Part shown: piece after piece, positions 37,996 to 59,236 of the stretch
How positions within the stretch are numbered: position 1 is the stretch's first letter
Layout: the number at the start of each line of letters is the position of its first letter
Assembly: GCA_030068145.1 (NCBI GenBank)
Contig: JAPJBO010000065.1
Location: 406,635 to 470,634 of the forward strand
Reading direction: 5' to 3'
Length of the DNA: 64,000 nucleotides
Source: Diplonema papillatum
Lineage: Eukaryota > Euglenozoa > Diplonemea > Diplonemida > Diplonemidae
Translations under genes and position numbers: made by a program
The notes under the pieces: model-generated
The model's input: the letters and a program-made list of their open reading frames with translations, nothing else
Databases searched by the model: none
What the model was told of the DNA's origin: nothing

Positions 37996-38670
37996 GGGCA
38001 TTCGTAGTCGTACTACCCCCCCCCAGCGCATCCGAAGCGGAATTCCTCTGCAGCACCATCCACCGCATCGCAAGCGGGCTGTACTACGAGTATCACAAAG
38101 TACTGTCCCTCCGACGATCTCGATCATGAAGTGGCTCGTGGTGCTTGGTCCCAGTGCTGGAAGGGGCATGAGGGAAAATGAAGCGAATCTTGCGAGATGC
38201 AAACCACAAGAGTTCGTGACGAGATGGTAAGGCAAAGGTTTGCTGTAAGGAGTCCGAGTTACCGACTGTCATTCTTGTCATCCTTCCTCAGGGTCGTCTC
38301 AAAGAGCTTCTTGCTCTCTTGGTAACAGAGCGAAAGAAGCAGCCGGTCGAAGAAAAGCGGCTGTGGGGCAACACCAAGCAGTTGGCAGCAGAAAACGTTG
38401 AAGCTCGGAAAAGGAAACGATTCCATTCCGCTTCAACGAGAATTGATGATTTGCTGCAAGAGTACATGGGTTGTTTTTCCTCCATCACATCTTGGCATCT
38501 GTTGCGAAGGGATCGAGCCTTGTATGCGTCGAAGTTTCCGAGCCCTTTTTTCTGCTAAGTGCGAAAAGCTACACAAAAATATTTATTTTGAGGCTGAAAA
38601 AAAGTTACCTGCCAGTTACTGTCAGCTACCTACCAGTTACTGTCAAAATCAGGCCTTCAAATGCGCCACA
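37996..38670. other. non-satellite island inside the minisatellite
   Basis: Starts with a C-run and CGCATCCGAAGCGGAATTCC. It contains a 79-residue frame at 38319-38558 (+; TTG-initiated in that reading) with a basic coiled-coil-like stretch (AAENVEARKRKRFHS), and a short GTTAC(T/C)TGCCA repeat at 38605-38650 that resembles one at 5336-5380. It looks like an insertion that split the satellite. The ORF is unrecognised. Confidence 0.45.
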
Positions 38671-40765
38671 TGCTGGTTCTGTTATCTGGCCATCTACCGC
38701 GCATCAAGCGTTTTTAGGATTTCGTTTACGGGCGTTTGATGTCATTCAAACACCGTTCTTTGGTCATTCGCAGTCTATCAAACGCCGATCTGTGGCCGTT
38801 CGCTGTCAATCTGGCGCCACTTATTAGGCATTCGTGGTCATCCAAACGCCGATCGCTGTCATCTGCCACCGCTCTCTGGGCATTCGTAGTCGTTCTACCG
38901 CAGCTCCTTTCCCATTTGCTGTTATTCTGGCTTCGTCCGTTGGACATGATGAAGCGTTTTGGCGCCGGTCATTGAGCGTTTGTTGTTGTTGTAGCTTCCA
39001 TCGAGGTTTCGCCGTTTGTTGCCGATCTTTGGGCGTTTGTTGTTATTCTAGCGCCGTTCTTTGGTCTTTGCAGTCAATCGAGGACCGCTCTTTCGTCGTT
39101 TGTTGCCGATCTTTGGGCGTTTGATGTCATTCGAACGCTGTTTTCAGTGCTCCTTGGCCATTTGCTGTTGCATGATGTAGCGTTCTGGCGCCGATCCTTG
39201 GTAGTTTGTTGTTATTCTAGCGCCGGTCTTTGGTCATTTGCAGTCAGTCGAGGGCCGTTTGCTGTGTCGCTGGCGCCGATGTATGGGCGTTTGATGTCAT
39301 TCAAACGCCATTACTTTGTCATTTTCAGTCTAGAGCGCCGATCTGTGACCGTTGGCTGTCAATCTGGTGCCACTTCTCAGGCATTCGTGGTCATTCAAAC
39401 GCCGTTCTGATATCAGCTTGCTGTCATTTTGTCGCCGCTTTCTTGGCACTCGTAGTCGTTCTACCGCCGCTCATTGGCCATTTGCTGTTATTCTGGCTCC
39501 GTCCTTTGGACGTGATGAAGCATTTTGGCGCTGATCCTTGGGTGTTTGTTGTTATTCTAGCGCCTGTCTGTGGTAATTTGCAGTCGGTCGAGGGCCGTTT
39601 GTTGTCTCCCTGGCGCCGATCTTTGGGCATTGGACGTCATTCAAACGTCGTTTTTTTGTCATTAGCAGTCGCTCAAGCGCCGATCTGTTATCCGCCTGCT
39701 GTCATTCCGCCGCCGCTCTCTGGGCATTCGTAGTCGTACTACCGCCATTTGCTGTTATTCTGGTATGCCCTTGGAAATGATGAAACGTAGGTCATTCGCT
39801 GATATTCTTGGCACCATCTCCGGCCATTTGCAGTCGCCGACAACGTTCTTTGGCCATTCGCAGTCGTTCTGGTGCAGCTCTTCGGCCGTTTGCTGTAATT
39901 CTGGCGCCGTGCCTTGGAGTTTTGGAGTCGTTTTACCCTGCTTCTCAGTGGCCATTCGTTGTCTCTCTGGCGCCGTCCTCTGGCCGTTTGTTGTCATCCT
40001 TTCGTTTTGTGGCTAGCGCCGCTTGTTAGCTGGTCAGTCATGCCGGTTCCGCACTCTGGGCATTTTTCGTCGTTCTAGCATCACTCGCCGGTTTGGGTCG
40101 TTTTATCGCTGGCGCCCTGGCCGTGCATTGTCTCTTGCACCATTCTCTGACTCTGACGGGTTTACCGTCATTTTAGCACCGTTCTGTGGCCATTACAAGT
40201 CGATGTAGCGCCGCTCCCCGGCCGTTCTAGCTGCTGGAAAATGATGCCGTTTCTTGGACATTTGGAGTCGTTCTACCGCAGTTCTGTGCCCATTCGTGTC
40301 TCACTGGCACCAGTTGTGGTCATTGTGTTCTCGTTCTAGCGCCGCTCTTCGGCCGTTTTTGGGCATTTGGGGTCGTTTCTATCGCTGCTCTGGGGCCATT
40401 CGTTGTCTCTCTCTCTCAGGCGGTGTCCTCCAGCTGTTTGTGGTCACTCTAGCGCCGTTCTAGCACCGCTTGTTCAGCATTCACTGTGTCATTCCTGGCC
40501 CCGCCTTTCGGCCGTCTTGCAATTAAGGCGACATCCTTTGAACATTTGGAGTCTTTTTACCACTGCCGCTGCAGTCGTTCTACGGTCGTTGTGTGGCAGT
40601 TTGAGGTCATCGTAGCACTGTTCTTTGGCAATACCGTTCTCTGGCCGTTTGGGCTGCGCGCTGTGTTCTGGCACTGTTCTTTAGTCATTTGTGGTCGTTC
40701 TGTATCTCTGGTGCCACTATTTGACATTGTCCATGCACTCGTTCTAGCACCATTAGCTAGCTTCT
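38671..40765 (+). repeat. minisatellite, period near 32-33 bp, second block
   Basis: Same unit and orientation as the first block. The left part (38689-39745) is a diverged copy of 36642-37990. To the right of about 39750 the units become more heterogeneous and fade near 40765. From block length over period, the two blocks together hold well over 100 units (an estimate, not a count). Confidence 0.9.
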
Positions 40766-41059
40766 TTGATACAATGCTTTTTCCCTTATGCAAAAGAAAA
40801 AGGAAATAGTCTTCCCATCAGTGCTGGCGTGGTTGGCCCTTTCCCCTGCCAAAAAAACAGGAAACCACATATGCCAGCACAAGGGTTTGCCATTTTAAGA
40901 AAACTCAACAAAGCTGATGCAATTCACAAGAAAGAGTCGCCGGGAAAATTGGCGCAAACTGACTCCACATCAATCTAACCACCAACGTCCGACTAGTCGA
41001 ATTTCTGAAGTCATACACCCCCAACTACCAAAGTCGGAATGTGACTCAAAGTGACCCGG

Positions 41060-41320
41060 AATGAAATGCAGTCGTGGCTTTTCTAAAGCCACAAACCCCT
41101 CAACCACCCAAGTTGGAATGTAGCCCGAAAAGCTGACCCACAGTGACCCAGAATGAAATGCAGTCGTGGCTTTTCTAAAGCCACCCCCCCAACCACCAAA
41201 CCACCAAACCACCAAACCACCAAACCACCAAAGTTGGAATGTAGCCCGAAAAGGTGACCCAAAGTGACCCAGAATGAAATGCAGTCGTGGCTTTTCTAAA
41301 GCCACAAACCCCCCAACCAC
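41060..41320 (+). repeat. short tandem repeat unit with GAATGAAATGCAGTCGTGGC
   Basis: Three copies of GAATGAAATGCAGTCGTGGC followed by TTTTCTAAAGCCACAAACCC and AACCACCAAAGTTGGAATG, spaced about 80-125 bp apart. A CCACCAAA microsatellite lies at 41180-41230. The last copy runs directly into the 193-bp satellite. Confidence 0.85.
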
Positions 41321-41810
41321 CAAAGTCCGAAAAAGTGCGAAAAAGTGACCCAAAATGACCCGAAAAAGTGACAAAAAACGACCCGTGAACCAGTTTTTGG
41401 CCCTTTTGGGCCAATTTTTTTTTTGTCAAAAAGTGACCTGAGAAAGTCGCGGGTTCGGACAGACGGACAGACAGACAGACGGACAACTGTACCCACAAAC
41501 TAATAGTAACCACCAAAGTCCGAAAAAGTGCGAAAAAGTGACCCAAAATGACCCGAAAAAGTGACAAAAAACGACCCGTGAACCAGTTTTTGGCCCTTTT
41601 GGGCCAATTTTTTTTTTGTCAAAAAGTGACCTGAGAAAGTCGCGGGTTCGGACAGACGGACAGACAGACAGACGGACAACCGTACCCACAAACTAATAGT
41701 AACCACCAAAGTCCGAAAAAGTGCGAAAAAGTGACCCAAAATGACCCGAAAAAGTGACAAAAAACGACCCGTGAACCAGTTTTTGGCCCTTTTGGGCCAA
41801 TTTTTTTCTC
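41321..41810 (+). repeat. 193-bp tandem satellite, about 2.6 copies
   Basis: CAAAGTCCGAAAAAGTGCGA starts copies at 41321, 41514 and 41707, exactly 193 bp apart. Each copy holds a perfect hairpin TTGGCCCTTTTGGGCCAA followed by a T-run, then GACCTGAGAAAGTCGCGGGT, a GACA-type microsatellite and ACTAATAGTAACCACC. The third copy ends just after the hairpin. Confidence 0.95.
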
Positions 41811-41859
41811 TCACTCGGAAGAGAGCGAAAAACGCAACATAAACAGGAAAAAATAGCAC

Positions 41860-42130
41860 CAAAGAACAAGTTCACGATGAATGGCGACGATGTCGGACGA
41901 ATTTGGTGATCCGAAAAGCTGGTCTTCGAGGTATGCCCACTTGTGAGTCATTGAAGAGGTTCTGGGAGAGCTATGGGCACCCGTTTTCTCGAATTTTAGA
42001 CCGATTCATCCAAAGAAACACTCACAGGAAACAGTGTTCTTTCGCCGGTCGGAACTTCGGAAGTACAAGCCCCCTCTTCTTAAAGGGAGAAGGTCTCTTA
42101 TCATGCGTTTCTTTAAATGAGGGACAAGAA
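41860..42130 (+). repeat. family A/C copy, plus orientation
   Basis: Contains AAGTTCACGATGAATGGCGA (compare AATTCACAAGATGGTTCGGG at 51497), then the family C core in plus orientation with GAGTCATTGAAGAGGTTCTG and TTCGCCGGTCGGAACTTCGG. It abuts a family B copy. Confidence 0.75.
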
Positions 42131-42133
42131 TCT

Positions 42134-42742
42134 GATCTGCACCTCCTCGCGGTGTCCCCTGGAAACGTGTTTTTCGAAACGCGGCCAAGGCAAGCAGTAC
42201 CTTTGCTGTGGGTGAAAGCCCCTTACTTCGTATCTGGCGTCCGAGCTGCGCACCTACCCTTCCCGGGCGTAAAAGATCCTGCCCCAAGCTGCCCAGCAGG
42301 AACGGGGGGGGCGGTGCAAAGAGGCACCTTCCAGGTGAGCCTTGCCAAGTTTGACTCCCTTGTGGCCCTCTCATCGTGAAGGCGGGGTAAAATCGGGATG
42401 GTTACCAATGTGCCCCCGGTTTTTTGAATTAGTTGGCCCCAGTCTGAGTGACAGGTGGCGGCTTGTGGCTGAGCCGCGGCCTTTCCAGGCCCTTAGCCGA
42501 CTCTCCTTTCGTTTTTCTGAGTCCCCAGTGCCGTGGGGCAGGCGCCGGTTGCAGTGTGCAACTGGTGCGGGTTCAAACCGCGCCTGTCTGTGTTCGTGGT
42601 TGTGCCGTTTTTCGTTGTGAAGAAGTGAACCCGGAGAACCCACCAGGTCAGGCACCAGGTTTCTTGTCTGGCAAACTGTACGGCCTGGTGTTTAAAAAAA
42701 AATCAAGGCTGTCTGTGCGGTTGGCTGTGACAAGTCCACTCC
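42134..42742 (+). repeat. family B repeat, copy 1, with structured core
   Basis: Runs from CACCTCCTCGCGGTGTCCCC to GTGACAAGTCCACTCC. It is nearly identical to 54014-54622 (one difference noted, GTGCCCCC versus GTTCCCCC) and to 58770-59235. It holds a 48-nt foldable core at 42539-42586 with a GGTTCAAACC block resembling a tRNA-type B box. It is followed by AC-poor and A-rich sequence. The near-identity of dispersed copies suggests recent mobilisation, perhaps as a SINE-like retroposon. Confidence 0.85.
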
Positions 42743-42913
42743 TGCATTTCACAAAATTTGCAGCAGGAGGGACTGAGTCACACCAATCGAAAAGACACCG
42801 GAGAATACCCGAGTGTCGGCCCACAAACGAAGTATTTGAACTTCCCCTTTTGGAACTTGCTTGTCTTGCCCATTTTTCCCAGTTTGCCTCGAAGGCCCCC
42901 GTACGATTCTTCC

Positions 42914-43110
42914 AAAAAAAAAAAAAAAAAAAAAAAGGCAGTCTTAGATATTGTTTCCCGAATTGGCTGGTCAACAATGACCGTGTGTTTGGTTGATTGG
43001 AAAAGCTCGTCGTGCGGAAGTCGTCAAAGCATGCGAATTTGCGAGTCATTCTATAGGTTCTGGCAGAGCTATGGGTACTCATTCTCTTGAACTTTTGACC
43101 GATTCATCCA
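42914..43110 (+). repeat. A23 tract followed by family C copy
   Basis: Twenty-three A residues (42914-42936) lead into GGCAGTCTTAGATATTGTTT and the plus-strand version of the family C long unit, whose minus-strand copies lie at 33715-33815 and 34710-34815. The unit fades after CCGATTCATCCAAACT. Confidence 0.8.
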
Positions 43111-43621
43111 AACTCCATTTTCTCAGTGAGATTTTCCTTTCGGAGAGTCAAGGTCCAGAGGTCGTTCAGTAAGAGGTTTCGTTTCAGTCTTAATCGTCCT
43201 TTCATCATTTTGGTTAAACCTGTTTGCTTGATTTTTATTTACTTATGGTGTTCTGTGTCCCTACCTGCCTTGTCTCTCGAGAGCCCCTTATAAAAAAAAA
43301 AAGCAATCGCGTGCTCAGACGATGGATTTGGAAGGTTTTTAGATGGATGGGCCAAGCTGGACCTTCCTTTGCGTAGGTCTGCTCGGCTTTCGCACTTGAG
43401 CGGACAGCGATGTCTCAGAATCTGTGAGAACAGCGTGAGAATTGTGGGCTCTTAGAAGCTTCATGTAGTGATTCGTGTGTGATTCGTGTGTCGGGTTTGC
43501 GGGTAAGAGAGATACACACAGCCTGTGCCCGCCGAAACTTACACACAAATCCCGCTGTCCTCAGTCTTATCTTCCTTCCTTAGTAGCAACTACATTACGT
43601 CCCTCACGAACCTGCCACAGA
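43111..43621. other. spacer before the RPA-like ORF
   Basis: Includes GATTTTTATTTACTTATGGT followed by GTTCTGTGTCCCT at 43229-43264, the same 3' sequence that precedes the poly(A) tail of the retroposon-like copy at 60470-60528. The remainder may hold the promoter and left end of the Helitron-type unit. No TC-start terminus was identified with confidence. Confidence 0.35.
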
Positions 43622-45004
43622 ATGCCTGCCAAGATCGCCAGAGCCAGAAAATGTTTCGAGTGTGGGAAGATTCACACAGGGAAATGTGAAGCAGAAAAGG
43701 AGAGCGAGGAAGAAAGGCGGGAAGAGAAGCAGTCGCCAAGGCTGCAGCTGCAGAAGATGAAAGCAGCAGAGGGATGGGCGGAGGTGGTGAGAGAAGGAGA
43801 AGGGGAGGTTGGTGGACAAGATTGGAAAGGGAGGGGTCTATTGAAAACCGCAATAAGGGTGTTGGTGGTGCAGGTTGGGGAAGTGTCAGAGGGGGAAGGG
43901 AAAGGCGGAAGGGGGAGGTACAAAAGGTGCCAGTTGCACCTGCAAGACAGAACCGGGTGTGTCATGCGCGCCGTGCTGTGGTCCGAGGGGCTGAACAGGT
44001 TCGGGGAAGCACCGTTCCTGAAGTGTTCCTTCGTATGCATTCATTTGCACAACATAGGAGTCGCCTCGCAGGCAGAGCACGGCGTAAGCGCCACGATTGA
44101 TGCACAAAGCATCATTCAAGGAGCAACGGGGCAGTGGGAAGCAGAAATGCTTCCCCTGATGAAGACGAAAGAAATCGTCGAGAAGGAGGGCACGAGGTGG
44201 GCGGTTCAGAGGACGAAGGTTCTCGTTGCCAGAAAACACTCACGGGGGGGGATTCAAGTGATGGATCCGATCACAGAAATAGAAGAGATGTGGGGAGGCC
44301 ACCTGGCAGAAGCAGAAGCAGCCACGCCATGGGACGCGGGGAAAGAAGCAGAGTGGGTGGGGGCGGTGGAAGAAGGGGCTGCATACATTGTCCAAGTTTC
44401 GTTGAGGGGCAGGAAGAAGAAGAGCCTTGTCGTTAGGGGAAAACCACAGCGCTGCGAAAGCGCGGTGGAGGAAGGGTGGTGGGTTGCCACTGGGAAAGCA
44501 GCGTATGCCGAAGGGGAGGCAGAAACTCTGAAGCGCAAAGCTGAAGAGTTGAAAGTGGAAGATGTAGCAGGACTTCCCGAAGGGGAAGTGTTTAGTGTAA
44601 AGGGGGCTATTTCCGCAGCAAGCGGAATAGTCAGAGGGGGGGCTCCCATGTACATGGGATGCAAAAGCTGTCGTAAGAAGGTGAATTACACCTCAGACGG
44701 CGAGAGTCTTGAATGCCGCAACCCTCGGTGTGTTGGCATGGAGTGGGAGTGGAAGTGGGCGTTGGCATTGGAATTGGATGTGGATGGGTGGAAGGGGTCG
44801 CCCCCGCTGCGGGTAAACGCCTACGAGGTGGGTGAAGAGCTGTTGGGTTCTCCAGGAGAAAAGTGGGAACTGGAGCCCACAGCAGTACTCAATGCCTTAA
44901 AAGGCATGCACGGGACGTGGGAAATAAAGAAAGGGGGAAAAGAGAAACTGGTTCTTGTTAGTTTTGAATCCCAAAAGAAGAAGAAGGTGAACGATGCTGC
45001 CTGA
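43622..45004 (+). CDS. RPA70-like single-strand DNA-binding protein of a Helitron-type unit
   Basis: ATG 43622 to TGA 45002-45004, 460 residues. The N-terminus carries a small zinc-knuckle-like CFECGKIHTGKC (residues 10-21), then a charged linker. Next comes an OB-fold-like domain (RCQLHLQDRTGCVMRAVLW). The C-terminal third matches the zinc-ribbon OB fold of replication protein A large subunit: Cys347, Cys350, Cys365 and Cys370 in MGCKSC...LECRNPRC, then WKWALALELDVDGWKG and VNAYEVGEELLGSP. Many plant and protist Helitrons carry their own RPA-like gene, thought to protect ssDNA during rolling-circle transposition. It lies 1.2 kb upstream of, and on the same strand as, the AlkB-Rep ORF. An earlier non-ATG extension to 43475 is open but adds nothing recognisable. 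An expressed host RPA paralogue is the alternative. Confidence 0.75.
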   Translation: MPAKIARARKCFECGKIHTGKCEAEKESEEERREEKQSPRLQLQKMKAAEGWAEVVREGEGEVGGQDWKGRGLLKTAIRVLVVQVGEVSEGEGKGGRGRYKRCQLHLQDRTGCVMRAVLWSEGLNRFGEAPFLKCSFVCIHLHNIGVASQAEHGVSATIDAQSIIQGATGQWEAEMLPLMKTKEIVEKEGTRWAVQRTKVLVARKHSRGGIQVMDPITEIEEMWGGHLAEAEAATPWDAGKEAEWVGAVEEGAAYIVQVSLRGRKKKSLVVRGKPQRCESAVEEGWWVATGKAAYAEGEAETLKRKAEELKVEDVAGLPEGEVFSVKGAISAASGIVRGGAPMYMGCKSCRKKVNYTSDGESLECRNPRCVGMEWEWKWALALELDVDGWKGSPPLRVNAYEVGEELLGSPGEKWELEPTAVLNALKGMHGTWEIKKGGKEKLVLVSFESQKKKKVNDAA

Positions 45005-46174
45005 GCGCGAAAGCGTTGAGACAGCTTCGTTCACCTTCTTTTACACGACAACCTATGGGGGTTTCAGACGAAATTGGCGCATCTGTGGAAGGGAGTGGTT
45101 CGTTTTGCAACGTTGCCATTTCTCTCCTTTCTTCTTTATTTTTCATTTCCTCCCTGTTACTCTTTTACACATTACCACACCGAATGTTTCTTTCTCTTTT
45201 CGGCTAGTAAAAACAAACACATGCATATTCTTTTCTGTTCATTCTAGTTTCGTCGGACACAAAGGCTAAAAAATATTAAAACAACTTTCGACGGACCTCT
45301 CATCATTCAACACAGTCCGATGCCTAGTACGATGCGCATCTTACAACAGGGGTCCTTTGTGCCGCTGTATTTTCGCACACTTCAGGCTCGACCGAGAAGT
45401 GCACCGAACAGAGTAAACAAAGGAGTAAACCGGCTAACACTCTGCTGGTAGTACAGGTTGCCTACCCGGCATGCACCGCATCTTGTGGGACCCGGTTGAA
45501 CTCTGCTCGGTCGATCGTTGCGCCGCCGTCTCGGCTCGGACCTGCCCTCGGCCTGGTCGAGCTTCGCTTCGTACTGCTGCTGCTTCGCTGCGACCCGTCA
45601 CTGTGCTCCAGTCGACACGTAGTGCTTCTGCAGAACGTGCCCGGCATCCTTGTTTTCCCATTATCTTTTGCTCGTTGAAAGCGATTTGTTCCTCGTTTCA
45701 TTGTCGCATAGACCAGTGAAGAAACCGCTGCGACTGCTTGCAGTATAATAAAGGGAAGTCTTCTTGCACAGCTGCGGTAGCCTATTGCTAACAGGCTGAC
45801 ATAGTGTTTGCACCTGCGTTAAAATGATGCACCCATAGTTCATGTCGACCGGAACGGAGAAAAGTCGAAACCTGCAGTGCCAGTCTTTGTGAAAATCGTA
45901 TTTTTCATAGTTGCCTCATCCAAATAAAAAGGCCACAAGCTTTTTTCGATCGTGCCTTGTCGTGTTTGTTGTAGCGTTGTCTGATGAACGCGGTTGCTGC
46001 AGCAAAGCTTGCCTAGCTAAAGGGAGCAATGCGGAATTTGAAAGCTCAGCAAATAGTAATAACTTACTTGCGATTTGATGTTTTGCTTGTGCTGAATCTT
46101 GTTGCAACCCTTCTCAACATCTGAGCAACATCTCTCTGACAGGTTCTTTAAAAAAAAAAAAAAAAACAAGCACT
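45005..46174. other. spacer between RPA-like and AlkB-Rep ORFs
   Basis: AT-richer than its neighbours, with no supportable gene. It ends with an A17 tract (46150-46166) eight bases before the ATG of the AlkB-Rep ORF. The second AlkB ORF is likewise preceded by a homopolymer-rich leader (a T-run at 54907-54919). Confidence 0.4.
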
Positions 46175-49100
46175 ATGTCAGCCTCTCCTCCTGGCGTCGA
46201 TTTTGTGTCGCTGCCGCAGCAGCTCTTGGAAAGAGTTACGCATTGGTCTGAGCAGACCATGCAAAACTCAGAGCTCTGGGAGAAGTTGGGGGGACGCCGG
46301 ACCATCCAATATGGATGGAAGTATAGGGGGGGCACCAAGTGCTTGGTGCGTGCCTCCCCTATCCCGGCAGGTGCTTTGCTGGAAACAGCGAAGTGGCTGG
46401 AGCAACGCACTGGAGTTGCTCCAAACCAGTTGTTGGTCAACTGGTATAGTCCTGGGTCCGGTATAGCGCCTCACATCGATGATGAGCGCCTGGGCCCCAT
46501 CATCCACTCCGTCTCCTTGTTGAGTGCGAGTGCGATGATGTGGACAAAGGGAGGGGAGCAGAGGCGAACGAAGCTGCCAGTCGGCACAGTTTGCACTCTG
46601 ACGGGGGAGGGGCGTACTGTGTGGAAACACAGTATTGCTCCGGTTGACGTGCCACAAGAGCGAGTGTCGTTGACATTCCGGTACGTCAACACGAGAACCC
46701 CCGCTCCATCCCTCACCTCACCACCTGTCCCGGTAGCTACAACCCCTACCGACGAACCGCCTCGCCTGTTCAGTTCAGTTGCAGAACTGTCCAGGTTTCT
46801 TGCACCGCCCCTTGCGCTCACCGAGACCAGGAGCGGTAACGAAAAGAAAGAAAAGAACTTTGGGGGGGAAATCCGGGATGAAGTTTCTGTGGCCACCTTT
46901 TCAGACCTGAAAAGGTTTGCGGAAAGCTTCGCAAAGAACCGTCCCTCACCCACCCCTGTTGTTGGGTTCCCCGGAGCGACGGGATTGTTCGGGTGGGTCC
47001 CGGGGAGCGCATTGGCAGTCCGTAAAAGGAACGTTGTGTGCAAGGCCCGAAAGGTTTACCGAGGTACCCCACCAGTAAACCCCAGAAAGTCGGCTGCCAA
47101 GAGAAGGCACCAAATTTTAAGCCGACAAGAAAAAAGAAGGAGGGCAGAGGAGGGGAAGAAAAAAGCACCCAGAGCAAAGGAAAAGAAGCTCACTCCACCC
47201 CAAGAAGAAGAAACCACACGGGGCAGGTGGTGGAAAAAGAACAAGAGGCGAAGAGCAGCAAAGAAGAAGAAAAAGAACAGAGGAAAGGTCCCCGCATGGC
47301 CCCCGATTCCCGAGAGCAACATATGCCCATTAGGCGCAACTAAGGTTGCCGCTGCGTGTTTGCCGCGATGGGCTGCACCCTCCATGTTTCGTTTCCCCGT
47401 GCGTTTTTTTGTCTGCATCCTGCTTCTGCAGTCGTTCAACCTTGCAGGGGCAGAAAACGAAACAGAATGGGCCGATTTCTCGATTGATGAGGGGGATCCT
47501 GACTTCGATGTTCTGACTGCTGCGCATGAAGTTGCAGGAATTTTGGAAGAAGAAACGTCTACAGAAAAAAAGGGGCGGAGGGAATCTCCAGCATCTTCTT
47601 CTATAGCAAGTCCTGCTATAAAACGAAGAAAGTCGTCGGAAGCTCCGAGGAGAAAGCACCCAAAGAGAGAGCGTTCAGATGAAAAAAGAAGAGCTGCGAC
47701 GGAAAGGAAAAGGAGGTCTCGATCCTCCCAGAGTCAGGGAACTGAGAATCTTCATGATAGGAAGAGAAAGCGGGTGTCACGAGGTAATAAAGCCCTCAGG
47801 GAAAAGGAGAATGAGGCCGAGAAGCAGAGGAAGCAAAAGCTGCGCAGCGTAAAGGAAAACAGGGAGCACGAAAAAGAAGTCGAAAGGGAGAGAAGAATAA
47901 AAGCAAGGAAGGGGAAGCGGGCAGCAATGGAAGAACGCCTGGGTGCTAGAAGAAAGGGTTTCGACAAGGTCAGAAACTTTGCCTGCGCCAAGCTCGAGGA
48001 TGTCCAAGAAGCCGACGTTGAACTGGACAATTTCGGGATTCTGGGCGGCGGTGATGAGCGAATATTTTGCTCGCACTGCAAAGCCTTGCTTTTTAAGCGA
48101 GAAGCCAGCAGAACGAGTAGGAAGCTCTGTTGCCAAAAAGGAAAGGTGAATCATGAAAACTGCCCACAGATAGTTGTACCTGATGCTTTGATGAAGCTGT
48201 TCACTGACAGCCACTTCAAGGAAAGCAGCAGGTATTACAATAACTACCTGTCATTTGCGGCCCCAGTTTTTAAAGAGGACGACCGGTTCAAAACAGGCAA
48301 AGAAAAGAAGGGACCCAGAAATATTGTGATCAAAGGCAGGGTGATGCACATGGTGGATGCTATTTTACCTTCGAAAAATAAAAGCCAGTCGGAGCTTCGA
48401 CATGCAGAAGTTTGGTTCACGGATCGCGAAGTTCCGCCAACTTCTCGCGTGATGCGGAAGTCTGTCTTGAAGGAACTCAAGGAGCTCGTTTTGAAAGATC
48501 ACCCTTTCAGGCATACACTGCAGAAGTTTGTTAACAAGCTTCTTGCCAAAGAGCGAAGGCAGAAAACGCTACTAAACGGGCATGTAAAGTTTGATCTGGG
48601 GGAACTAAGCAAGAAGGGTGTCGAGTACGTGACCGAGGAAGCCAAAATGGAAGTTGGGGCTGTCATGTCAGACGAAGGATCACGGAGGAAGTTCATTGTT
48701 CATCTCCGAGGGGGTAAGCGGAAGTGGATAAAGGATGTGCATCCTCTTTACGAACTAGCGTCTTACCCTCTGTTTTTCCCGAAATTTGAGTACAATCCGA
48801 GTAAGGCAAATGAGAACTTGGGAAAATCTCCGTGGGGGAATTTTGGCTACCGCAAGAATGTACTGTTCAATGATGGAAAAACACGCACGAACCTTCAATT
48901 GTCGCCAAAGATGTATTCTGCGTACCACTTGCACCACCGGGTCGGCTATACAAACCCGCTGTTGGTGGCAGGCAGGCTGTCGCAGCAATACATTTGTGAC
49001 ATGGCCGCACGCGATGAGTATGATGAACTCACTTTTCATCATACACAGCGTGGGAAGAAAGTTCGTTCTGGAACTGCGGATGCAATTGCCAAGGATGCAG

Positions 49101-51382
49101 CCGGGAATGTGAAGGTCTCTGAAATGGGAAAGAAAGCAGGGGGGATGTCTTCAAATTTTCCGTACGGTCCGGAACGTAAGAAAAAGCTATGCCAAGAAGC
49201 GTTGGCCATATTTTCTGATAAGGAGTATGGAAAACCTGACTACTTTGTTACATTTAATGGGAACGGCATATGGCCTGAGATATTAGGCAGCCTGGGGCCA
49301 AACGAAACTGCCATGGACCGTCCGGATTTGGTTGCTCGCGTTTTCCATGAGAAAGCACAGCAAATGATCAAGGACATCAAAGAAGGAGCCGTAGGTGACA
49401 ACAAAGCTGTTGTGTGGGTGTATGAGTTTCAGAAACGCGGCCTCCCACACATGCACCTTCTCGCTTGGAACGAGGACCATCACAAACCTCGAACTCCAGA
49501 TGATTTAGACCATGTAGTGCATGCTGAGATACCTTGTAAGGTAAAACAACCATTGCTTCACGAACTGGTCGATAAGTGGCACATGCATAGCAGCTGTGCG
49601 CATGTGAAGGGCAACAAACAAGAAATGGCAGAACGGCTGTGCAGCTCAGAATCAAAAACAAAACCGGGCAACTGGTATTGCCGATCAAATTTTCCAAAAG
49701 ACTTTCAGGACGAAAGTGTTGCAGATCTGGATGGCATGGCCCTCCCGAAGCGCCCAGAAAATGGGAGGAAGACAGGGCGTACGAAGCTGGACAATCGATG
49801 GGTTGTCCCATACAATGCCGGGTTGCTTCTGAAATATCGCTCTCAGGTAAATGTAGAGGTGTGCCGCGGCATTGGGGCCATATCTTATCTTTTCAAGTAT
49901 TTGTACAAGAATGATAAGAAAGCTGCGGTAGAGTTAGGTTGGTTAGATGACGAAAGTTATGTTCACAGTGCAGAAGAGAGTCAGGCCCTGAAATACATCA
50001 ACGGCCGTTACCTGGGCTCAGTGGAAGCATGTATGCGCATGTTTGGGTTCGAGCATGCAGGGAAGTCAGTATCTGTAGAAGATTTGCCCATTCATTTGCC
50101 AGGAAAGCATTATGTTGAAATTGATACGGACAACAATCGGGACGAGGTACTTGATAAGGTTTCCGAAACATCATCAAAACTTCTTGCATATTTCGAATTG
50201 TGTGCAACCGAATATCGAACACTTAAAGCTAATACCAACAATCCTTCTACGACGAAGCGGTGTTGCGCGAGGTTTCTAACTTACGCTGAAATTCCCCGGT
50301 ATTACACATGGTTGCGGAATAAGAAGCAGTGGAGAATCCGCCAAGATGTTGAATGGGACGAAGTAACAGAAACTCTGTCTAAAGCAAGAAGGTCTGCAAA
50401 GACAGAAGCAACTGTTGGAAAGCTTTGGTGGGTCAGTCCTAAAGACGCACAACTGTATGCTCTTCGATCCCTTCTGGTTCACACTCCGGGGGTAAGGTCG
50501 TGGAAGGATTTGATGTTTCGCAAAAACAGCAGCCAAGACAACGATTGGGAGAATTGTGAAGAAGATGACAAACATAGCGTGGAGTTTGATAACCCCCCTG
50601 ACAACCCACCTGATAACCCCCCTTTTCTTTCTGTTACCACCGCTGCCGCAGTCGCTGCAGGAGGGGTTCTGGCTGCTTCTATAATAGCTTCAAGCAGCGA
50701 ATCTGGCGGAGAGGAGAATAATACGAACAGGAAGGAGAAGAGTGCAGAGTGGAGGATGATGCGAAAAAACTTCAAAAATAATGATTTTGTAGCAGCTTGT
50801 AAGGCGCGCGGGCTGTACAGAGACGACTCCGAGCATGAGAAAGTGATGGAACATGCAAAGGATGTCTTCACTGCCCGCCAGCTCAGATTTTTTTTCTACC
50901 TTCTAATATCGCATGCCGGGGTTCATGCGCCAATGCGTCTTCTCAACAAGTACAAGGATTTTCTTTTCCGAAATACTGATCCCACCAACCCAAACAAGAA
51001 GGCCACTCCAATGACAACGTGGAAGGGCCTGCTGGATATTTCGAAACTGGCTGAATCCGATGGCAGAAGTAATGGTTACCTGGGGATTCCGGAACCAGGT
51101 AATCCACCAGTTGAAGAAGGTGAAGTAGCTGACATTGGGGAAGTCGAAAGGAAAAGAATAATGAAAGCTGTGGGTGCAAAGGTGTACAATCATATGTACG
51201 ACAAGGAGGCTGTTTGGGAGTCTTACCAGGAGAGGTATGAAATGATGAACAAAGAACAAAAGGAAGCATGCGACGCTGTCCGGCAAAGCATTGAAGAGAA
51301 CGAACCCCCCGCAAACCCGCAAACCCGCAAACCCGCACTCGGTGGCCCTGCGGGCCCCCTCGTGCATTTGATGGATTCTTAG
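46175..51382 (+). CDS. AlkB-like dioxygenase fused to Helitron HUH Rep, helicase truncated
   Basis: 1,735 residues. Residues 1-175 form an AlkB-type 2-oxoglutarate/Fe(II) oxygenase: NQLLVNWY at 84-91, iron ligands His100-x-Asp102 (APHIDD) and His152 (WKHSI), and RVSLTFR at 163-169 for 2-oxoglutarate. A very basic linker follows (GRWWKKNKRRRA), then at Met404 a hydrophobic segment (FRFPVRFFVCILLLQSF) and an acidic stretch. Next come Lys/Arg-rich helices and a Helitron-type zinc motif starting CSHC at 632-635. The Rep domain has DYFVTFNGNG from 1022, the HUH motif as HMH at 1092-1094 (KRGLPHMHLL) and tyrosines 1238, 1242 and 1244 in SYLFKYLYK. The ORF reaches MNKEQKEACDAV, where the Pif1-like helicase should begin. 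There a CCCGCAAA array and repeat sequence supply the last residues and the stop. The unit is therefore not autonomous; AlkB and Rep active sites look intact. Confidence 0.85.
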   Translation: MSASPPGVDFVSLPQQLLERVTHWSEQTMQNSELWEKLGGRRTIQYGWKYRGGTKCLVRASPIPAGALLETAKWLEQRTGVAPNQLLVNWYSPGSGIAPHIDDERLGPIIHSVSLLSASAMMWTKGGEQRRTKLPVGTVCTLTGEGRTVWKHSIAPVDVPQERVSLTFRYVNTRTPAPSLTSPPVPVATTPTDEPPRLFSSVAELSRFLAPPLALTETRSGNEKKEKNFGGEIRDEVSVATFSDLKRFAESFAKNRPSPTPVVGFPGATGLFGWVPGSALAVRKRNVVCKARKVYRGTPPVNPRKSAAKRRHQILSRQEKRRRAEEGKKKAPRAKEKKLTPPQEEETTRGRWWKKNKRRRAAKKKKKNRGKVPAWPPIPESNICPLGATKVAAACLPRWAAPSMFRFPVRFFVCILLLQSFNLAGAENETEWADFSIDEGDPDFDVLTAAHEVAGILEEETSTEKKGRRESPASSSIASPAIKRRKSSEAPRRKHPKRERSDEKRRAATERKRRSRSSQSQGTENLHDRKRKRVSRGNKALREKENEAEKQRKQKLRSVKENREHEKEVERERRIKARKGKRAAMEERLGARRKGFDKVRNFACAKLEDVQEADVELDNFGILGGGDERIFCSHCKALLFKREASRTSRKLCCQKGKVNHENCPQIVVPDALMKLFTDSHFKESSRYYNNYLSFAAPVFKEDDRFKTGKEKKGPRNIVIKGRVMHMVDAILPSKNKSQSELRHAEVWFTDREVPPTSRVMRKSVLKELKELVLKDHPFRHTLQKFVNKLLAKERRQKTLLNGHVKFDLGELSKKGVEYVTEEAKMEVGAVMSDEGSRRKFIVHLRGGKRKWIKDVHPLYELASYPLFFPKFEYNPSKANENLGKSPWGNFGYRKNVLFNDGKTRTNLQLSPKMYSAYHLHHRVGYTNPLLVAGRLSQQYICDMAARDEYDELTFHHTQRGKKVRSGTADAIAKDAAGNVKVSEMGKKAGGMSSNFPYGPERKKKLCQEALAIFSDKEYGKPDYFVTFNGNGIWPEILGSLGPNETAMDRPDLVARVFHEKAQQMIKDIKEGAVGDNKAVVWVYEFQKRGLPHMHLLAWNEDHHKPRTPDDLDHVVHAEIPCKVKQPLLHELVDKWHMHSSCAHVKGNKQEMAERLCSSESKTKPGNWYCRSNFPKDFQDESVADLDGMALPKRPENGRKTGRTKLDNRWVVPYNAGLLLKYRSQVNVEVCRGIGAISYLFKYLYKNDKKAAVELGWLDDESYVHSAEESQALKYINGRYLGSVEACMRMFGFEHAGKSVSVEDLPIHLPGKHYVEIDTDNNRDEVLDKVSETSSKLLAYFELCATEYRTLKANTNNPSTTKRCCARFLTYAEIPRYYTWLRNKKQWRIRQDVEWDEVTETLSKARRSAKTEATVGKLWWVSPKDAQLYALRSLLVHTPGVRSWKDLMFRKNSSQDNDWENCEEDDKHSVEFDNPPDNPPDNPPFLSVTTAAAVAAGGVLAASIIASSSESGGEENNTNRKEKSAEWRMMRKNFKNNDFVAACKARGLYRDDSEHEKVMEHAKDVFTARQLRFFFYLLISHAGVHAPMRLLNKYKDFLFRNTDPTNPNKKATPMTTWKGLLDISKLAESDGRSNGYLGIPEPGNPPVEEGEVADIGEVERKRIMKAVGAKVYNHMYDKEAVWESYQERYEMMNKEQKEACDAVRQSIEENEPPANPQTRKPALGGPAGPLVHLMDS
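51308..51337 (+). repeat. CCCGCAAA array truncating the Rep-helicase ORF
   Basis: Three to four units directly after the codons for SIEENEPP. It marks the junction between Helitron sequence and a family A repeat (CACTCGGTGGCCCTGCGGGC). The arrays at 58123 and 61844 run into the same family A start. Confidence 0.9.
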
Positions 51383-51866
51383 TGCTTCGATGTGGGCCTT
51401 CTTGTCCAGGTTCGGCCTCTTGTGTGAAGAGGCCGACTCGAAAGAAAACAGGATTCAGCACACACAACGCAAACAGGAACTAGAAGAAGAAAAGAAATTC
51501 ACAAGATGGTTCGGGTCGGAGTTGTGCTTGAAAAATCTGGTGTTCGAGAGTTCGTGTGGAAGCAGTCAAGGTATGTGAAGTTCCGAGTCAGCGAAAAGGT
51601 TCTGACAGAGCTATGGGTACATATTTTTGTTGATATTTTGACCGATGCATCCAACGAAACCGTCACAGGAATTCGAAGCTCCTACGAACGACGTTCTTTC
51701 AAGGGTCGCAACTTCGGGAGAACGTGCCCCCCCATTTCGACATGCAACAGTTGCCTATCACGTTTTCGGTGTTCCTTCAGCAAAGTGCTCCTGAGAGGTC
51801 GTGAAGTCCAAGAAGCTGGCCATCAAAGGCCCCGGAATTCTCAATGGGTGGTCTTGGGGTTGGGGG
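51337..51866 (+). repeat. family A/C repeat, copy 1
   Basis: Starts CACTCGGTGGCCCTGCGGGC, then GATGTGGGCCTTCTTGTCC and GAAAGAAAACAGGATTCAGC. It continues into the family C core (GAATTCGAAGCTCCTACGAA). Nearly identical copies are at 58283-58715 and 61938-62465. A frame of 123 residues at 51506-51877 is conserved between copies 1 and 3 but matches nothing known. Confidence 0.85.
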
Positions 51867-52330
51867 ACAAAATCTGACTTGCCACCTCCTCGCGGTGTCC
51901 CCTGGAAACGTGTTTTTCGAAACGCGGCCAAGGCAAGCAGTTCCTTTGCTGTGGGTGAAAGCCCCTAACTTCGTATCTGGCCTCCGAGCTGTGCACCTAC
52001 TCTTCCCAGGCGTAAAAAAGGTCGGCAAGAAAGCAGCAGCAGCAGCAAGGCAGCAGCAGCAAGGCAGGCAGCAGTAGAAGCAAGGCAGCAGCAGCAAGGC
52101 AGCAGCAGCAAGGCAGCAGCAGCAAGGCAGCCACGGCAAGGCAGCCGCGGCAAGGCAGCAACGGCAATGCAGCAGCAGAAGCAAGACAGCAGCGGCAAGG
52201 CAGCAGCAGCAAGGCAAGACAGCAGCGGCAAGGCAGGAGCGGCAGCAGGACAGCAGCAGCAAGGCAGCAGCAGCAAGGCAGCAGCGGCAAGGCAGCAGCA
52301 GCAAGGCAGCCAGAGCAAGACAGCAGCGGT
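51867..52330 (+). repeat. family B fragment running into a GCAGCAGCAAGGCA array
   Basis: The first about 160 bp is the left end of family B. It then enters a 14-15-bp tandem array of GCAGCAGCAAGGCA units (52030-52330). The same junction occurs at 62466-62915, which lacks one array unit. Leu/Cys-rich frames on the minus strand are repeat artefacts. Confidence 0.85.
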
Positions 52331-52399
52331 TAATCAGCAGGAGGAAGAGCACCAACAGAAGGCAGCAGACAGGATAGGAGCTTTGAATTCAAATAAACA

Positions 52400-52930
52400 T
52401 AAACAGAAAATCAAAACACAGGCGAAGTTTGTTTGAAGCGCTTAAGAAGGAAATCGGAGCTTGCAATGAAAGCAGTCTTTGCAAGCGAAGGTCCTTGACT
52501 GCAGTGTTTGGTTTTGCGAGAATTCCACAGCTTCGGAGAAAGGCAGCAGAGCAGCAGGAGCAAGAGTAGCAGCAAGAAGAGCAGCAAGAGGAGGAGCAAG
52601 GCAGCAGCAAGGCAGACAGCAACTTTCGTTTCAAAGAAACCTAAACAGGAAATTAAAACACAGACGAAGTTTGCGAATCGGGGCTTCGATGAAAAATGCA
52701 AGCCTTTCCATTTCGAAGGGGGAGGGTCGTTTACTGCAGCGTTTGGTTTTGAGAGAGTTTCACAGCTTCGATGAAAGGCAACAAGAGAAGCAGGAGCAAG
52801 AGCAGCACCAGCACCAAACACAGGAACAACAGGAGCAGCTAGATGAGCAGCAGCAAGGCAGCAAAAACCCCATCGAAGTCAAGAGAAGGTTGCTTTAAGC
52901 CTTTTGCCCACACTTTTCTTCTTATTTTAA
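52400..52930 (+). repeat. family E repeat, two diverged units, with CAG-rich arrays
   Basis: Unit 1 (about 52415-52560) and unit 2 (about 52655-52800) share ACACAG(A/G)CGAAGTTTG and GTTTGGTTTTGAGAGAGTTT-type blocks. Unit 2 recurs at 59237-59370, and the whole region recurs at 62990-63520. No gene. Confidence 0.75.
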
Positions 52931-53162
52931 AGAAATGAATGTAAAGAAATGAAAAGATGTCCCAGTGCTGGCATGGCAGGCCCCTTTTGGCCCAAAGAAC
53001 AGGTAGCCACCGTTGTCAGCACATGGGGTTTCCACTCATTCGCATTTTTTTTTGTAGCAGCAGAAACATCAGCAAGACTGAAGCACCAGCAGGGGGAGAA
53101 GGAGCAGAAGCAGCAGCAGCAGCAGCAGCAGCAGCAAGTAGCAGCAGAAGCAGCACAGCATC

Positions 53163-53612
53163 AGCAGAACCAAACCAGGAACCCAAAACATTGGGAGGAA
53201 GGATGGGGGAGGGGAAAATGGCTATTGGTTGTCTCTTGTGTGCGTGCTTTGTCCTATCTTTGAAGGGTTGAAAGGAAGCTGCACTTTGCAACGCGGGAGT
53301 ACCTGTCGAGCCAGTCAGCAAGATCAACCCGTGTCACTATGCCAGCATTTTGGATCAGATGCGAGCCCCTCCATAGGCTTTGTTGAGCGTCCTTGACGTT
53401 CATGCTTTGAGCAACTCCTGCAGGCAGTTCCTCGCAACTGGCCGAAAAAACTTTGTCTCACGACATTGTATGTGGCTAACCGCAGTGGAAACAAAACAGG
53501 AGGAAGCAAACCTTTCGAGGTCTGCGTGTTCATAGTTCTGATGATCCCTAATCGGTGGAAGTTTTGGGCAGATTAGAGACAGACAAAGCACACGCATAGC
53601 AACAATCTTTGG
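53163..53612 (-). repeat. dispersed repeat family D, minus copy
   Basis: Reverse complement of the 32609-33062 family, starting after the CAG tract at 53099-53160 and ending at CAACAATCTTTGGCA. Complete relative to the plus copy, with about 10-15% visible differences. Confidence 0.8.
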
Positions 53613-53679
53613 CACGGGGACTGTGATACTTGGGTATATTTTTCGAATTTTCAAGTTTTGGAAAAAAATATTATGAGCA

Positions 53680-53940
53680 CCAGGCAGCACCAGCAGGAGG
53701 CACACACCAGCCAGCACCAGCAGGAGGCAGCACCAACGGCAGGCAGCACCAACGGCAGGCAGCACACGCAGGCACCAGCAGGAAGCACATAGCAGGCAGC
53801 GCAGTACCAGCAGACACCCACCCAGGCCAGCACCCAGCAAGTCAGCACCAGCAAGTCAGCACCAGCAAGTCAGCACCAGCAAGTCAGCACCAGCAAGTCA
53901 GCACCAGCAAGTCAGCACCAGCAAGTCAGCAGCCAGCAAG
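53680..53940 (+). repeat. CACCAGCAAGTCAG minisatellite (14 bp), short array
   Basis: An irregular CAGCACCAG region leads into about seven regular 14-bp units (53838-53935). It is followed by GCCAACAAAAAGCCTTGAGT. The same composite, with a much longer array, is at 60690-61080, so the two derive from one ancestor. Confidence 0.9.
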
Positions 53941-53998
53941 CCAGCCAACAAAAAGCCTTGAGTGAGAGACAAGCCCCTAGACACACAGGACTCCCACC

Positions 53999-54622
53999 GG
54001 GGGACAAAATCTGACTTGCCACCTCCTCGCGGTGTCCCCTGGAAACGTGTTTTTCGAAACGCGGCCAAGGCAAGCAGTACCTTTGCTGTGGGTGAAAGCC
54101 CCTTACTTCGTATCTGGCGTCCGAGCTGCGCACCTACCCTTCCCGGGCGTAAAAGATCCTGCCCCAAGCTGCCCAGCAGGAACGGGGGGGGCGGTGCAAA
54201 GAGGCACCTTCCAGGTGAGCCTTGCCAAGTTTGACTCCCTTGTGGCCCTCTCATCGTGAAGGCGGGGTAAAATCGGGATGGTTACCAATGTTCCCCCGGT
54301 TTTTTGAATTAGTTGGCCCCAGTCTGAGTGACAGGTGGCGGCTTGTGGCTGAGCCGCGGCCTTTCCAGGCCCTTAGCCGACTCTCCTTTCGTTTTTCTGA
54401 GTCCCCAGTGCCGTGGGGCAGGCGCCGGTTGCAGTGTGCAACTGGTGCGGGTTCAAACCGCGCCTGTCTGTGTTCGTGGTTGTGCCGTTTTTCGTTGTGA
54501 AGAAGTGAACCCGGAGAACCCACCAGGTCAGGCACCAGGTTTCTTGTCTGGCAAACTGTACGGCCTGGTGTTTAAAAAAAAATCAAGGCTGTCTGTGCGG
54601 TTGGCTGTGACAAGTCCACTCC
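53999..54622 (+). repeat. family B repeat, copy 2
   Basis: Most complete left end (GGGGACAAAATCTGACTTGC). Near-identical to copies at 42134 and 58754. Structured core at 54419-54466. It is followed directly by a CAG/CAGCCC-rich tract (54623-54830). Confidence 0.85.
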
Positions 54623-54949
54623 GGCGGCAACACGAGCACCAGCAGCAGCATCTGCCGCAGCAACAGCAGCCCCAGATCCAGCAGCCACAACAGCAGCAAC
54701 GGCAAAGGCCCCTACAGCAGCAGCCCCAGCCTCAGCAGCCGCAGCCACAACAGCAGAAGCAGTAACTGCCTCAACGGCAGCAGCCCCAGCACCCGCAGCA
54801 GCGGCACCAGCAGCCGCAGCAACAACGGCAGCTGCTTCTCTTTTTCCCCCCCGCCCGCACCTGGCCAGCAGTCGTCCGGGATCATACCCCGAGGGCCGGT
54901 GTTTTCTTTTTTTTTTTTTGTTTTTTCTTTAGTCCTTTCCCCTCCCACC
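54623..54949. repeat. CAG-rich tract and leader of the second AlkB ORF
   Basis: Interrupted CAGCAGCCCCAG sequence to about 54830, then a C-rich stretch and a T-rich, pyrimidine leader (54905-54945) ending CCCACCATGC around the start codon. The polypyrimidine run followed by AG could also be a 3' splice region. Confidence 0.5.
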
Positions 54950-56596
54950 ATGCCCGAGGGACCCATACCCGGGCTCAGCTTCCAGTCGGTCCCTCAGGGC
55001 CTTCTGGAGAGGCTCAGCCGGGTACCCGAGCTCGGGCCGAGAGCCCCGTGGAGGAGGCTGGGGGGCAGGGAGACCCAGCAATGGGGGTTCGCCTTCCGAC
55101 AGGGCGGACTCCCGCTCAAGCTGGAAGAGGGGATCCCCGAAGGGCCCCTTAAAGAAATGGCGGATCTCATTCGAGTCCGCCTGGGGTGGGTACCGGACCA
55201 GTTGCTGGTCAACCGGTACGGGAGAGGGGTGGGAATCGCCCCCCACACGGACCAGCGGGCGCTGGGTCCGACGGTCGCGACCGTGTCGCTCTTAAGTGAC
55301 ACGGTCATGGAGTGGGAGAAGGGGGGACGGAAGGTAAGGACCCCCCTGCCAGTCGGCACCCTGTGCCACATGGAAGGCGAGGCCAGGTGCCTGTGGACGC
55401 ACGGGATTCGTCCCGCCGACGTCACACAGCCCCGGGTCTCGCTGACCTACAGGTCGGTGCGCGGGGGGGCCCGATCACTCTCCCACGATCCCCCCCAGCC
55501 CTCGGCCGATGCCCCGTCGCACCCCACGGTCGGAGCTCCTCGGACGAAACGCCCCACCGACCGGGCTCAAGGTCTCCTGCCAGGCAAGCCGGGGAGAAAC
55601 GAAGAGGAGGAGCACGACCAGGGAGGTGCGACGGACGCAGAGCGGGATCAGGGCCGCCCCCCCCAGAGAGAAGAACGGGACTGGGACGCCCCCCCGAGGG
55701 CACCCCCAGCATCCCTTGCGCCCCAGCCCCGGGAAGCCCGCCCGTGGAGGTGGGAGGACGTGTACACACACGTCTTCGAGAGCCCCGCCCAAGGCTGGAT
55801 TCCCCTCCGAGATTCCAACCGGAGGGGGGTAAGGCTAGTGGGGCCCAGTCCCCCGCCAGCGCCCCCCGGAAGAGTCCCCCCCCCTCCCCCACCACAGGAG
55901 TGGGGGCCGGAGTGGGTCCCAGGGGATGCCCCCCTCGCCCGGGGCAGGCCGGCACGACTGCCAAAGACGGGGGGCACAAAAGGAGGGGACAGACGCCGGA
56001 GCCCGCTCCCCACCTACCCGCCCAAGCCCCGCCCGAAGAAACTGAGGCCCACCCCTAGCAAAGAAGAAAGGAGGGTAAAAGCGGGGCGCCGACGGGAGGC
56101 CCGGGCCAAAAGGAGGGAGGAGGAAGGGCAGCAGCCCCGCAGCCCCAGCCCGGCCCCCCGAAAGGAGGACGAGGGGGACCCGCCCACCACGAAGGGGAGG
56201 TGGTGGGCGAGAAACAAAAGGAGGAGGGAGGGTGGAAGGGGAAAGACCCGTCCCCACAAGAAGAGACGGGAAGGCCTCCGCAGGCCTGCCCCGCCCGAGG
56301 AGGACGAAGAGACCCCGGTCTCGTGCCCGCAAGGCAGGGGCGCCCCCCCCAGGAGGGCGGGAGGGTGGAAGAAGAGGACCCTCCCCTGGTCTAGGCGTGT
56401 GGGGGTTGATCGTACTGTGCGGGGCGTTCTGCCTCGGGCAGGCGACCCCACGGCCCCAGGGGGTGGTACGCGGCCGGTGGGGGGCACAACCCTCCACCGA
56501 CGACGGCGAACCCACGCCGACACCGGAGGCCCGGTGCCCAAGGATGCCCCGCCCCCCCCGCCCCAGCCCCCGCCCTCGCCCCCCTTCCCGGTCTGA
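54950..56596 (+). CDS. second AlkB-like 2OG/Fe(II) dioxygenase, GC-rich paralogue
   Basis: ATG 54950 in a good context (CCACCATGC) to TGA 56594-56596, 548 residues. Residues 1-170 align along their length with the AlkB part of the Rep fusion: DQLLVNRY at 83-90, His99-x-Asp101 (APHTDQ), His151 (WTHGI), RVSLTYR at 162-168. The catalytic set is complete. The rest is Pro/Arg/Gly-rich and retains the linker motif GRWWARNKRRRE. In the Rep fusion that motif is followed by a hydrophobic segment. Here the equivalent (GLGVWGLIVLCGAFCLGQ, about 56385-56440) lies in the +1 frame, so the annotated C-terminus is probably out of frame. GC content is far above all neighbours, and no Rep domain follows. Either a decayed relative of the mobile unit or a gene with an unseen intron. 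Confidence 0.7.
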   Translation: MPEGPIPGLSFQSVPQGLLERLSRVPELGPRAPWRRLGGRETQQWGFAFRQGGLPLKLEEGIPEGPLKEMADLIRVRLGWVPDQLLVNRYGRGVGIAPHTDQRALGPTVATVSLLSDTVMEWEKGGRKVRTPLPVGTLCHMEGEARCLWTHGIRPADVTQPRVSLTYRSVRGGARSLSHDPPQPSADAPSHPTVGAPRTKRPTDRAQGLLPGKPGRNEEEEHDQGGATDAERDQGRPPQREERDWDAPPRAPPASLAPQPREARPWRWEDVYTHVFESPAQGWIPLRDSNRRGVRLVGPSPPPAPPGRVPPPPPPQEWGPEWVPGDAPLARGRPARLPKTGGTKGGDRRRSPLPTYPPKPRPKKLRPTPSKEERRVKAGRRREARAKRREEEGQQPRSPSPAPRKEDEGDPPTTKGRWWARNKRRREGGRGKTRPHKKRREGLRRPAPPEEDEETPVSCPQGRGAPPRRAGGWKKRTLPWSRRVGVDRTVRGVLPRAGDPTAPGGGTRPVGGTTLHRRRRTHADTGGPVPKDAPPPPPQPPPSPPFPV

Positions 56597-57141: not shown

Positions 57142-57430
57142 AGGGGACAAAATCTGACTTGCCACCTCCTCGCGGTGTCCCCTGGAAACGTGTTTTTCGA
57201 ATCACGGCCAAGGCAAGCAGTACCTCTCTGCTCCCTCGTGGGGCGGAAAGGTTGAAGATCGAAGGCTCGAAGGCAGAAGCGGCTTGACAAACCGTTTCCT
57301 CACCCGAAGGCTGGTTCTGCCCCCTTGTGGGGCGGAGAGGTTGAAAATCGAAGGCTCGAAGGCAGAAGCGGCTTGACAAACCGTTTCCGTTTCCGGAAGG
57401 CTGGACTCCCCGGTGGGTCTTTCTTGCTGC
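57142..57430 (+). repeat. family B left fragment plus an approximately 90-bp tandem duplication
   Basis: 57142-57228 is a family B left end. Two copies of a unit with GTGGGGCGGA(A/G)AGGTTGAA and ATCGAAGGCTCGAAGGCAGA follow (57236 and about 57325). No gene. Confidence 0.8.
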
Positions 57431-57497
57431 GAAGACGAGGTTGCTTTGGTGCTTGGCTTTTCTAGCAGGGCCAAAGTTGTGGAATTTCCTGTGTCTG

Positions 57498-58750: not shown

Positions 58751-58753
58751 GTT

Positions 58754-59235: not shown

Positions 59236-59236
59236 G

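Follow-up and report, generated by a model that had tools for sequence, protein, structure and literature searches.

An AlkB-type dioxygenase domain in one open reading frame with a truncated Helitron Rep in Diplonema papillatum

Could a transposon carry a demethylase as part of the very protein that moves its DNA? A locus of the marine flagellate Diplonema papillatum raises this question, where a single unbroken open reading frame (ORF) encodes an AlkB-type domain and a Helitron Rep. The window, i.e. the whole stretch of DNA that was analysed, is 64,000 nucleotides long, and the features used below are as follows.

43622..45004 (+): probable RPA70-like ORF, 460 aa from its ATG, from sub-threshold Pfam matches
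46175..51382 (+): AlkB-Rep ORF, 1,735 aa
46175..46729 (+): AlkB-type 2OG-Fe(II) dioxygenase domain, with H100, D102, H152, R163 and R169
46730..47449 (+): linker common to the second AlkB family, from the alignment of both AlkB ORFs (alignment A1)
47450..48091 (+): K/R/E-rich region preceding the Rep (aa 426-639), from the drop in GC3 and a reading of the translation
48092..51302 (+): Helitron Rep region, with HUH (HMH, aa 1092-1094) and two tyrosines (aa 1238 and 1242), from PF14214 and the Helraiser alignment
51303..51382 (+): (CCCGCAAA)n array, then the beginning of a dispersed repeat, truncating the Rep ORF before the helicase, from self-comparison of the window
54950..56596 (+): second AlkB ORF without detectable Rep (open over 54899-56596, ATG at 54950), AlkB domain at 54968-55459, PF13532 with E-value 6.4e-12

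The N-terminal part of the AlkB-Rep ORF is an AlkB-type dioxygenase domain. Pfam places PF13532 at aa 42-169 with an E-value of 1.6e-16, and the catalytic set named in the first-pass annotation (His100, Asp102, His152 and Arg163/169) is indeed there and does not vary between this AlkB and the second one of the window. The structure prediction that it had proposed for this part gave an AlkB-type fold, i.e. a double-stranded beta-helix with HxD...H and RxxxxxR, the best of five models having pLDDT 68.9 and pTM 0.69. The structures nearest to the model include ALKBH5, an RNA demethylase, and ALKBH2, a dsDNA repair enzyme, and the best PDB match by sequence is ALKBH8. A protein search with aa 1-185 gave no match among the 452 long word-sharing candidates scored. 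The ORF shows no match to the TET/JBP clade: no TET/JBP family is found among its Pfam matches at E-values up to 1, and 2OG-FeII_Oxy_2 is listed instead. Comparison of the two AlkB domains over 170 codons gave pS 0.76 (saturated) and pN 0.40, with identities of 55, 61 and 36% at codon positions 1, 2 and 3; since third positions are less conserved than second ones and pS exceeds pN, the domain has been under purifying selection, a signal that covers the common history of both copies and may predate any capture or fusion.

The remainder of the ORF contains a Helitron Rep, confirming what had been read from HMH at aa 1092-1094 and SYLFKYLYK. PF14214 matches aa 914-1096 with an E-value of 8.2e-38, and aa 651-1343 align with residues 145-825 of Helraiser (7lcc) with an E-value of 2.9e-67. 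The tyrosines of SYLFKYLYK at aa 1238 and 1242 align with residues 727 and 731 of the 7lcc chain, which we take to be the catalytic ones. Both marks of a Helitron Rep, the HUH endonuclease and the two tyrosines, are found.

The Rep is truncated by a dispersed repeat, which takes in the final 24 codons of the ORF (from base 51308). Self-comparison of the window pairs 51308-53399 with 61909-64000 at 97.7% and 51308-51772 with 58257-58719 at 98.7%, and the last 24 codons have translated matches at both other places (~58.26 and ~61.91 kb). C-terminal to aa 1343 Helraiser is matched only weakly (E-value 0.64), and by a reading of the translation the break seems to lie shortly upstream of the expected Walker motif of the helicase. 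Pfam finds no Pif1-type helicase in the AlkB-Rep ORF or in the three forward frames of 51309-64000; since none is joined to the Rep, we have filed the locus as a truncated Helitron-type Rep ORF and not as a complete Helitron. Helitrons have a 5'-TC end and a 3' hairpin followed by CTRR; neither end is placed at this locus, whose 3' part is missing. Being truncated, this copy is not a working element.

The surroundings are rich in repeats. Arrays of the 8-base unit (CCCGCAAA) occur at five places of the window, about 32502-32544, 35037-35103, 51303-51337, 58123-58264 and 61842-61932, all on the same strand, and three of the five stand where one and the same dispersed repeat begins. A dispersed repeat starting near GGGGACAAAATCTGACTTGCC has six copies in the window (starts at 42118, 51861, 53999, 57143, 58751 and 62460), all on the forward strand and flanking both AlkB units on either side. 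Imperfect repeats are densely clustered at 36148-39910, where the AT skew is strong and falls to -0.45. Further upstream lies a forward-strand ORF of 5,416 codons (15725-31975), which in its second part matches AAA ATPase and an RZ-type zinc finger and presumably resembles RNF213-like proteins. Another forward ORF, at 59648-60301, has a weak match to the DDHD domain (E-value 0.0041, below the cut-off). Rfam gave no match on the window.

The ORF upstream of AlkB-Rep, on the same strand, is probably RPA70-like, as judged from its sequence. As a whole it matches only REPA_OB_2 (E-value 0.022) and MCM_OB (0.14) in Pfam. When it was searched in three pieces, one gave REPA_OB_2 (0.0025), another Rep_fac-A_C (0.0035) and MCM_OB (0.034), and the third nothing. 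NCBIfam lists 'replication factor A' at an E-value of 0.29. Against the PDB, RPA70 is matched at an E-value of 1.1 by one piece, another piece matches nothing, and the whole ORF matches only an unrelated chain (1.4); the single-sequence fold is unusable, with pLDDT 32. The first-pass annotation had called this ORF RPA70-like, and the matches of the pieces do follow the RPA70 order, but all of them are below the Pfam cut-off and the assignment is weaker than was stated.

The AlkB domain also occurs without a detectable Rep, nearby and elsewhere in the same genome. The second AlkB ORF of the window, which lies where GC is high (0.712 over 55001-57000), is 48% identical to the first AlkB over 188 aa, and the likeness continues through the basic stretch of the linker, which contains TT(R/K)GRWW..NKRRR (GRWW at aa 350 of the AlkB-Rep ORF). 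Its occurrence nearby suggests that AlkB could be a mobile module of its own. Two further protein searches were made, both scoring only those candidates that share most words with the query, by which relatives may be missed. The alignment of the two AlkB ORFs retrieved two of 7995 scored candidates, P0006 (854 aa) and P0007 (644 aa), both annotated on other D. papillatum contigs and both without detectable Rep. Their longest contigs measure 29,105 and 37,156 bases and are too short to be the one studied here, which has at least 64,000. The whole AlkB-Rep ORF retrieved, of 7990 scored candidates, only two sandfly Helitron proteins; these list PF14214 alone, without AlkB, and the further AlkB-Rep fusions that had been suggested as a check were not encountered among the candidates scored. 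Viral contigs held no relative of alignment A1, of the Rep alone or of alignments A3 and A4. The prokaryote genome contigs held none of A4, and for A3 they gave a single Helitron-type locus, L001, which is 4,625 bases long and belongs to a bacterial bin; its match begins 34 bases from the contig end.

The second AlkB is matched by P0007 at 100% identity over 224 aa and by 457 residues of P0006, except for a stretch absent from the gene model. The Pfam and PDB matches of P0007 are confined to its AlkB part, with ALKBH6 as the best PDB sequence match, and its downstream part might, from a reading of its sequence, be the N-terminus of a LINE with zinc fingers. The public record names this protein tRNA methyltransferase. 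The parts downstream of AlkB differ among P0005, P0006 and P0007, which may partly be due to predicted introns. Around the second AlkB ORF, Pfam found no reverse transcriptase, transposase or helicase on the forward strand of 51309-64000, nor on the reverse strand of 51400-61300 (one weak unrelated match, E-value 0.053) or the forward strand of 33600-43500 (one weak unrelated match, 0.059), all three translated with stops as X.

The AlkB frame seems to reach to about aa 425, as suggested by the shared linker and by a hydrophobic stretch (aa 409-425) that follows the basic one at a like distance in a relative. This stretch lies 59 residues past GRWW in the AlkB-Rep ORF, ranking 9th in hydropathy among 1719 windows, and 64 residues past it in P0006, ranking 1st among 838, the two being matched by distance and hydropathy and not by a tool alignment. 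In the second AlkB copy of the window it lies in another frame. The junction between the AlkB and Rep modules is presumed to fall in the K/R/E-rich region, aa 426-639.

The reading that we prefer, with a probability of about 0.5, is that the locus is a truncated 5' part of a D. papillatum Helitron with an AlkB domain at the N-terminus of its Rep and the RPA-like ORF next to it, that this AlkB serves tethered demethylation, and that it is mobile in this genome, having been acquired and not being ancestral to Helitrons. Intact copies would produce one protein from the AlkB-Rep frame. Its Rep would nick and hold the single-stranded DNA of the element, and the tethered AlkB would oxidatively strip N-linked methyl groups from that strand in a 2-oxoglutarate-dependent manner, which may spare the strand from methyl-based silencing, or from unrepaired damage that blocks rolling-circle copying. 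The target could alternatively be the RNA of the element, with the nascent protein acting on its own message. AlkB chemistry acts on N-methyl groups, and 6mA, 1mA, 3mC or RNA m6A are hence more likely targets than 5mC. Substrates of both kinds, DNA and RNA, would fit the predicted model, as its nearest structures include enzymes of both. The earlier proposal that the dioxygenase may aid escape from host DNA methylation finds parallels in the transposon-borne dioxygenases described in the sections considered of PMC12730594 and PMC9289625, and it is partly supported, but DNA and RNA substrates are not told apart and the copy is truncated.

The two modules might instead have met by accident, a separate repeated AlkB unit (domain and linker, ~425 aa) having landed in frame before a Helitron Rep whose own start is lost or lies downstream, which would make the joined frame a relic. 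Repeats of various kinds crowd the region, the AlkB units without detectable Rep (54950-56596, P0006 and P0007) may point the same way, and GC3 drops along the ORF from 0.66 in AlkB (115/175) to 0.56 in the linker and then 0.48-0.49, with 530/1073 in the Rep (Fisher p 6e-5, AlkB against Rep). Such a step is as expected if two sources were joined, and the RPA-like ORF, with 0.60 (275/460), is likewise above the Rep. The minimal gap that had to be open by chance, aa 426-480, from the end of the shared linker to the presumed start of a K/R-rich Rep N-terminus, stays open in 244 (~8%) of 3000 dinucleotide-shuffled sequences before allowing for frame and strand. On the same basis aa 362-480 is open in 52 of 3000, and aa 362-640 and aa 175-640 in none of 3000 each, these boundaries being chosen by the analyst and the longer stretches including probably coding sequence anyway. 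Against an accident, the two domains, both well above the Pfam cut-off, share strand and frame over 1,735 codons without a stop, whereas each of the five other frames has 34 to 95 stops. A Rep made separately would have to start at ATG 47927, behind seven out-of-frame ATGs, or at ATG 47384, beside the hydrophobic stretch of the AlkB unit. We consider an accidental joining less likely than the fusion.

Those seven ATGs also bear on whether AlkB and Rep are two genes of one element, expressed as separate spliced-leader trans-spliced messages that share a frame by chance. Spliced-leader addition is common to all Euglenozoa according to the passages considered of the D. papillatum genome paper (PMC10161547), and an acceptor-like tract ends at 47431, after which a Rep-only message would meet all seven before its first in-frame ATG. 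However, the hydrophobic stretch containing this tract has its coding match in P0006 at a like distance, and the corresponding DNA of the second AlkB copy of the window has, by eye, no such pyrimidine tract. A strict acceptor scan of 18 kb gave 36 sites, 47431 not among them; one of them precedes the RPA-like ATG by 38 bases and another the second AlkB ATG by 17, and none stands just before the first AlkB start. With sites this common the scan discriminates little, and we regard two messages as improbable. Equally improbable, in our view, is passive carriage, in which a Helitron took up a fragment of a host AlkB gene (ALKBH8/6-like) that serves no function. Captured gene fragments, often of host genes, are described for Helitrons in the part of PMC6431247 consulted, the host has a dozen AlkB-type genes as given in PMC10161547, and ALKBH8 and ALKBH6 are the best PDB matches of the first AlkB and P0007. 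But the domain has retained its catalytic residues and evolved under selection, even if that selection may predate the capture.

More broadly, the locus could represent a diplonemid Helitron lineage in which AlkB is built into the Rep and acts on the single-stranded transposition intermediate, with AlkB having spread to other repeats and a part of the dozen AlkB-type genes, which were counted among the epigenetic regulators of the host, being transposon genes. We hold this wider proposal only tentatively, its chances being a little short of even. The host context fits tethered demethylation loosely: in the passages considered, PMC10161547 describes a genome with 52% repeats and over 60 ORFs of DNA transposons, Helitron among them, and a potential for base J and for 5mC, and AlkB and Helitron occur in separate passages. 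AlkB counts in diplonemid genomes may include mobile copies. A demethylase borne by a transposon gives a clue to the host mark that keeps its carrier in check, and an AlkB fused to a nicking enzyme would point to N-linked methylation, either of the single-stranded intermediate or of the transcript, testable in Diplonema; such a target is not described for Helitrons in the sections considered of PMC12730594, PMC9289625, PMC6431247 and PMC4289320.

How does the locus compare with known systems? Fungal DNA transposons including Helitrons carry TET/JBP dioxygenases that were transferred between transposon lineages (Kojima 2025, PMC12730594, as far as its text was covered). Those Helitrons likewise have a 2OG-Fe(II) dioxygenase with a proposed escape from methylation-based silencing, but theirs is of the TET/JBP clade and not AlkB, and they live in fungi and not in Euglenozoa; the words 'fused' and 'fusion' are absent from the main text of that paper, and 6mA is discussed there for another transposon group. 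A Ty3/Gypsy lineage of the orchid Phalaenopsis also encodes an AlkB-type domain, whose m6A RNA demethylase activity was demonstrated in vitro, yet it is an LTR retrotransposon and its AlkB lies in an additional ORF without Rep fusion, as described in the sections considered of PMC9289625 (Alvarado-Marchena 2022). Helitrons with accessory domains, for which RPA, OTU protease, AP endonuclease and zinc fingers are named, and further domains in Pleurotus mentioned without their names, in the parts consulted of PMC6431247 and PMC4289320, share a Rep of the same family, probably an RPA-like companion, and an additional domain in the main ORF; they differ in that no AlkB is among the domains named there and in that our copy has no helicase. 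Relative to Helraiser of bats, whose Rep is alike over aa 651-1343 in HUH and both tyrosines, the AlkB-Rep ORF has AlkB added at its N-terminus and stops short of the helicase. Among the papers listed from the open-licence PMC literature on Helitrons or diplonemids, none is seen to describe a Helitron-AlkB fusion, in line with the first-pass annotation that knew of no such family, although one may have been published outside that literature. Transposons with a dioxygenase, and Helitrons with one, are already known from the portions of the papers cited; an AlkB-clade domain in one frame with the Rep, in a euglenozoan, appears to be new within the open-licence PMC literature searched.
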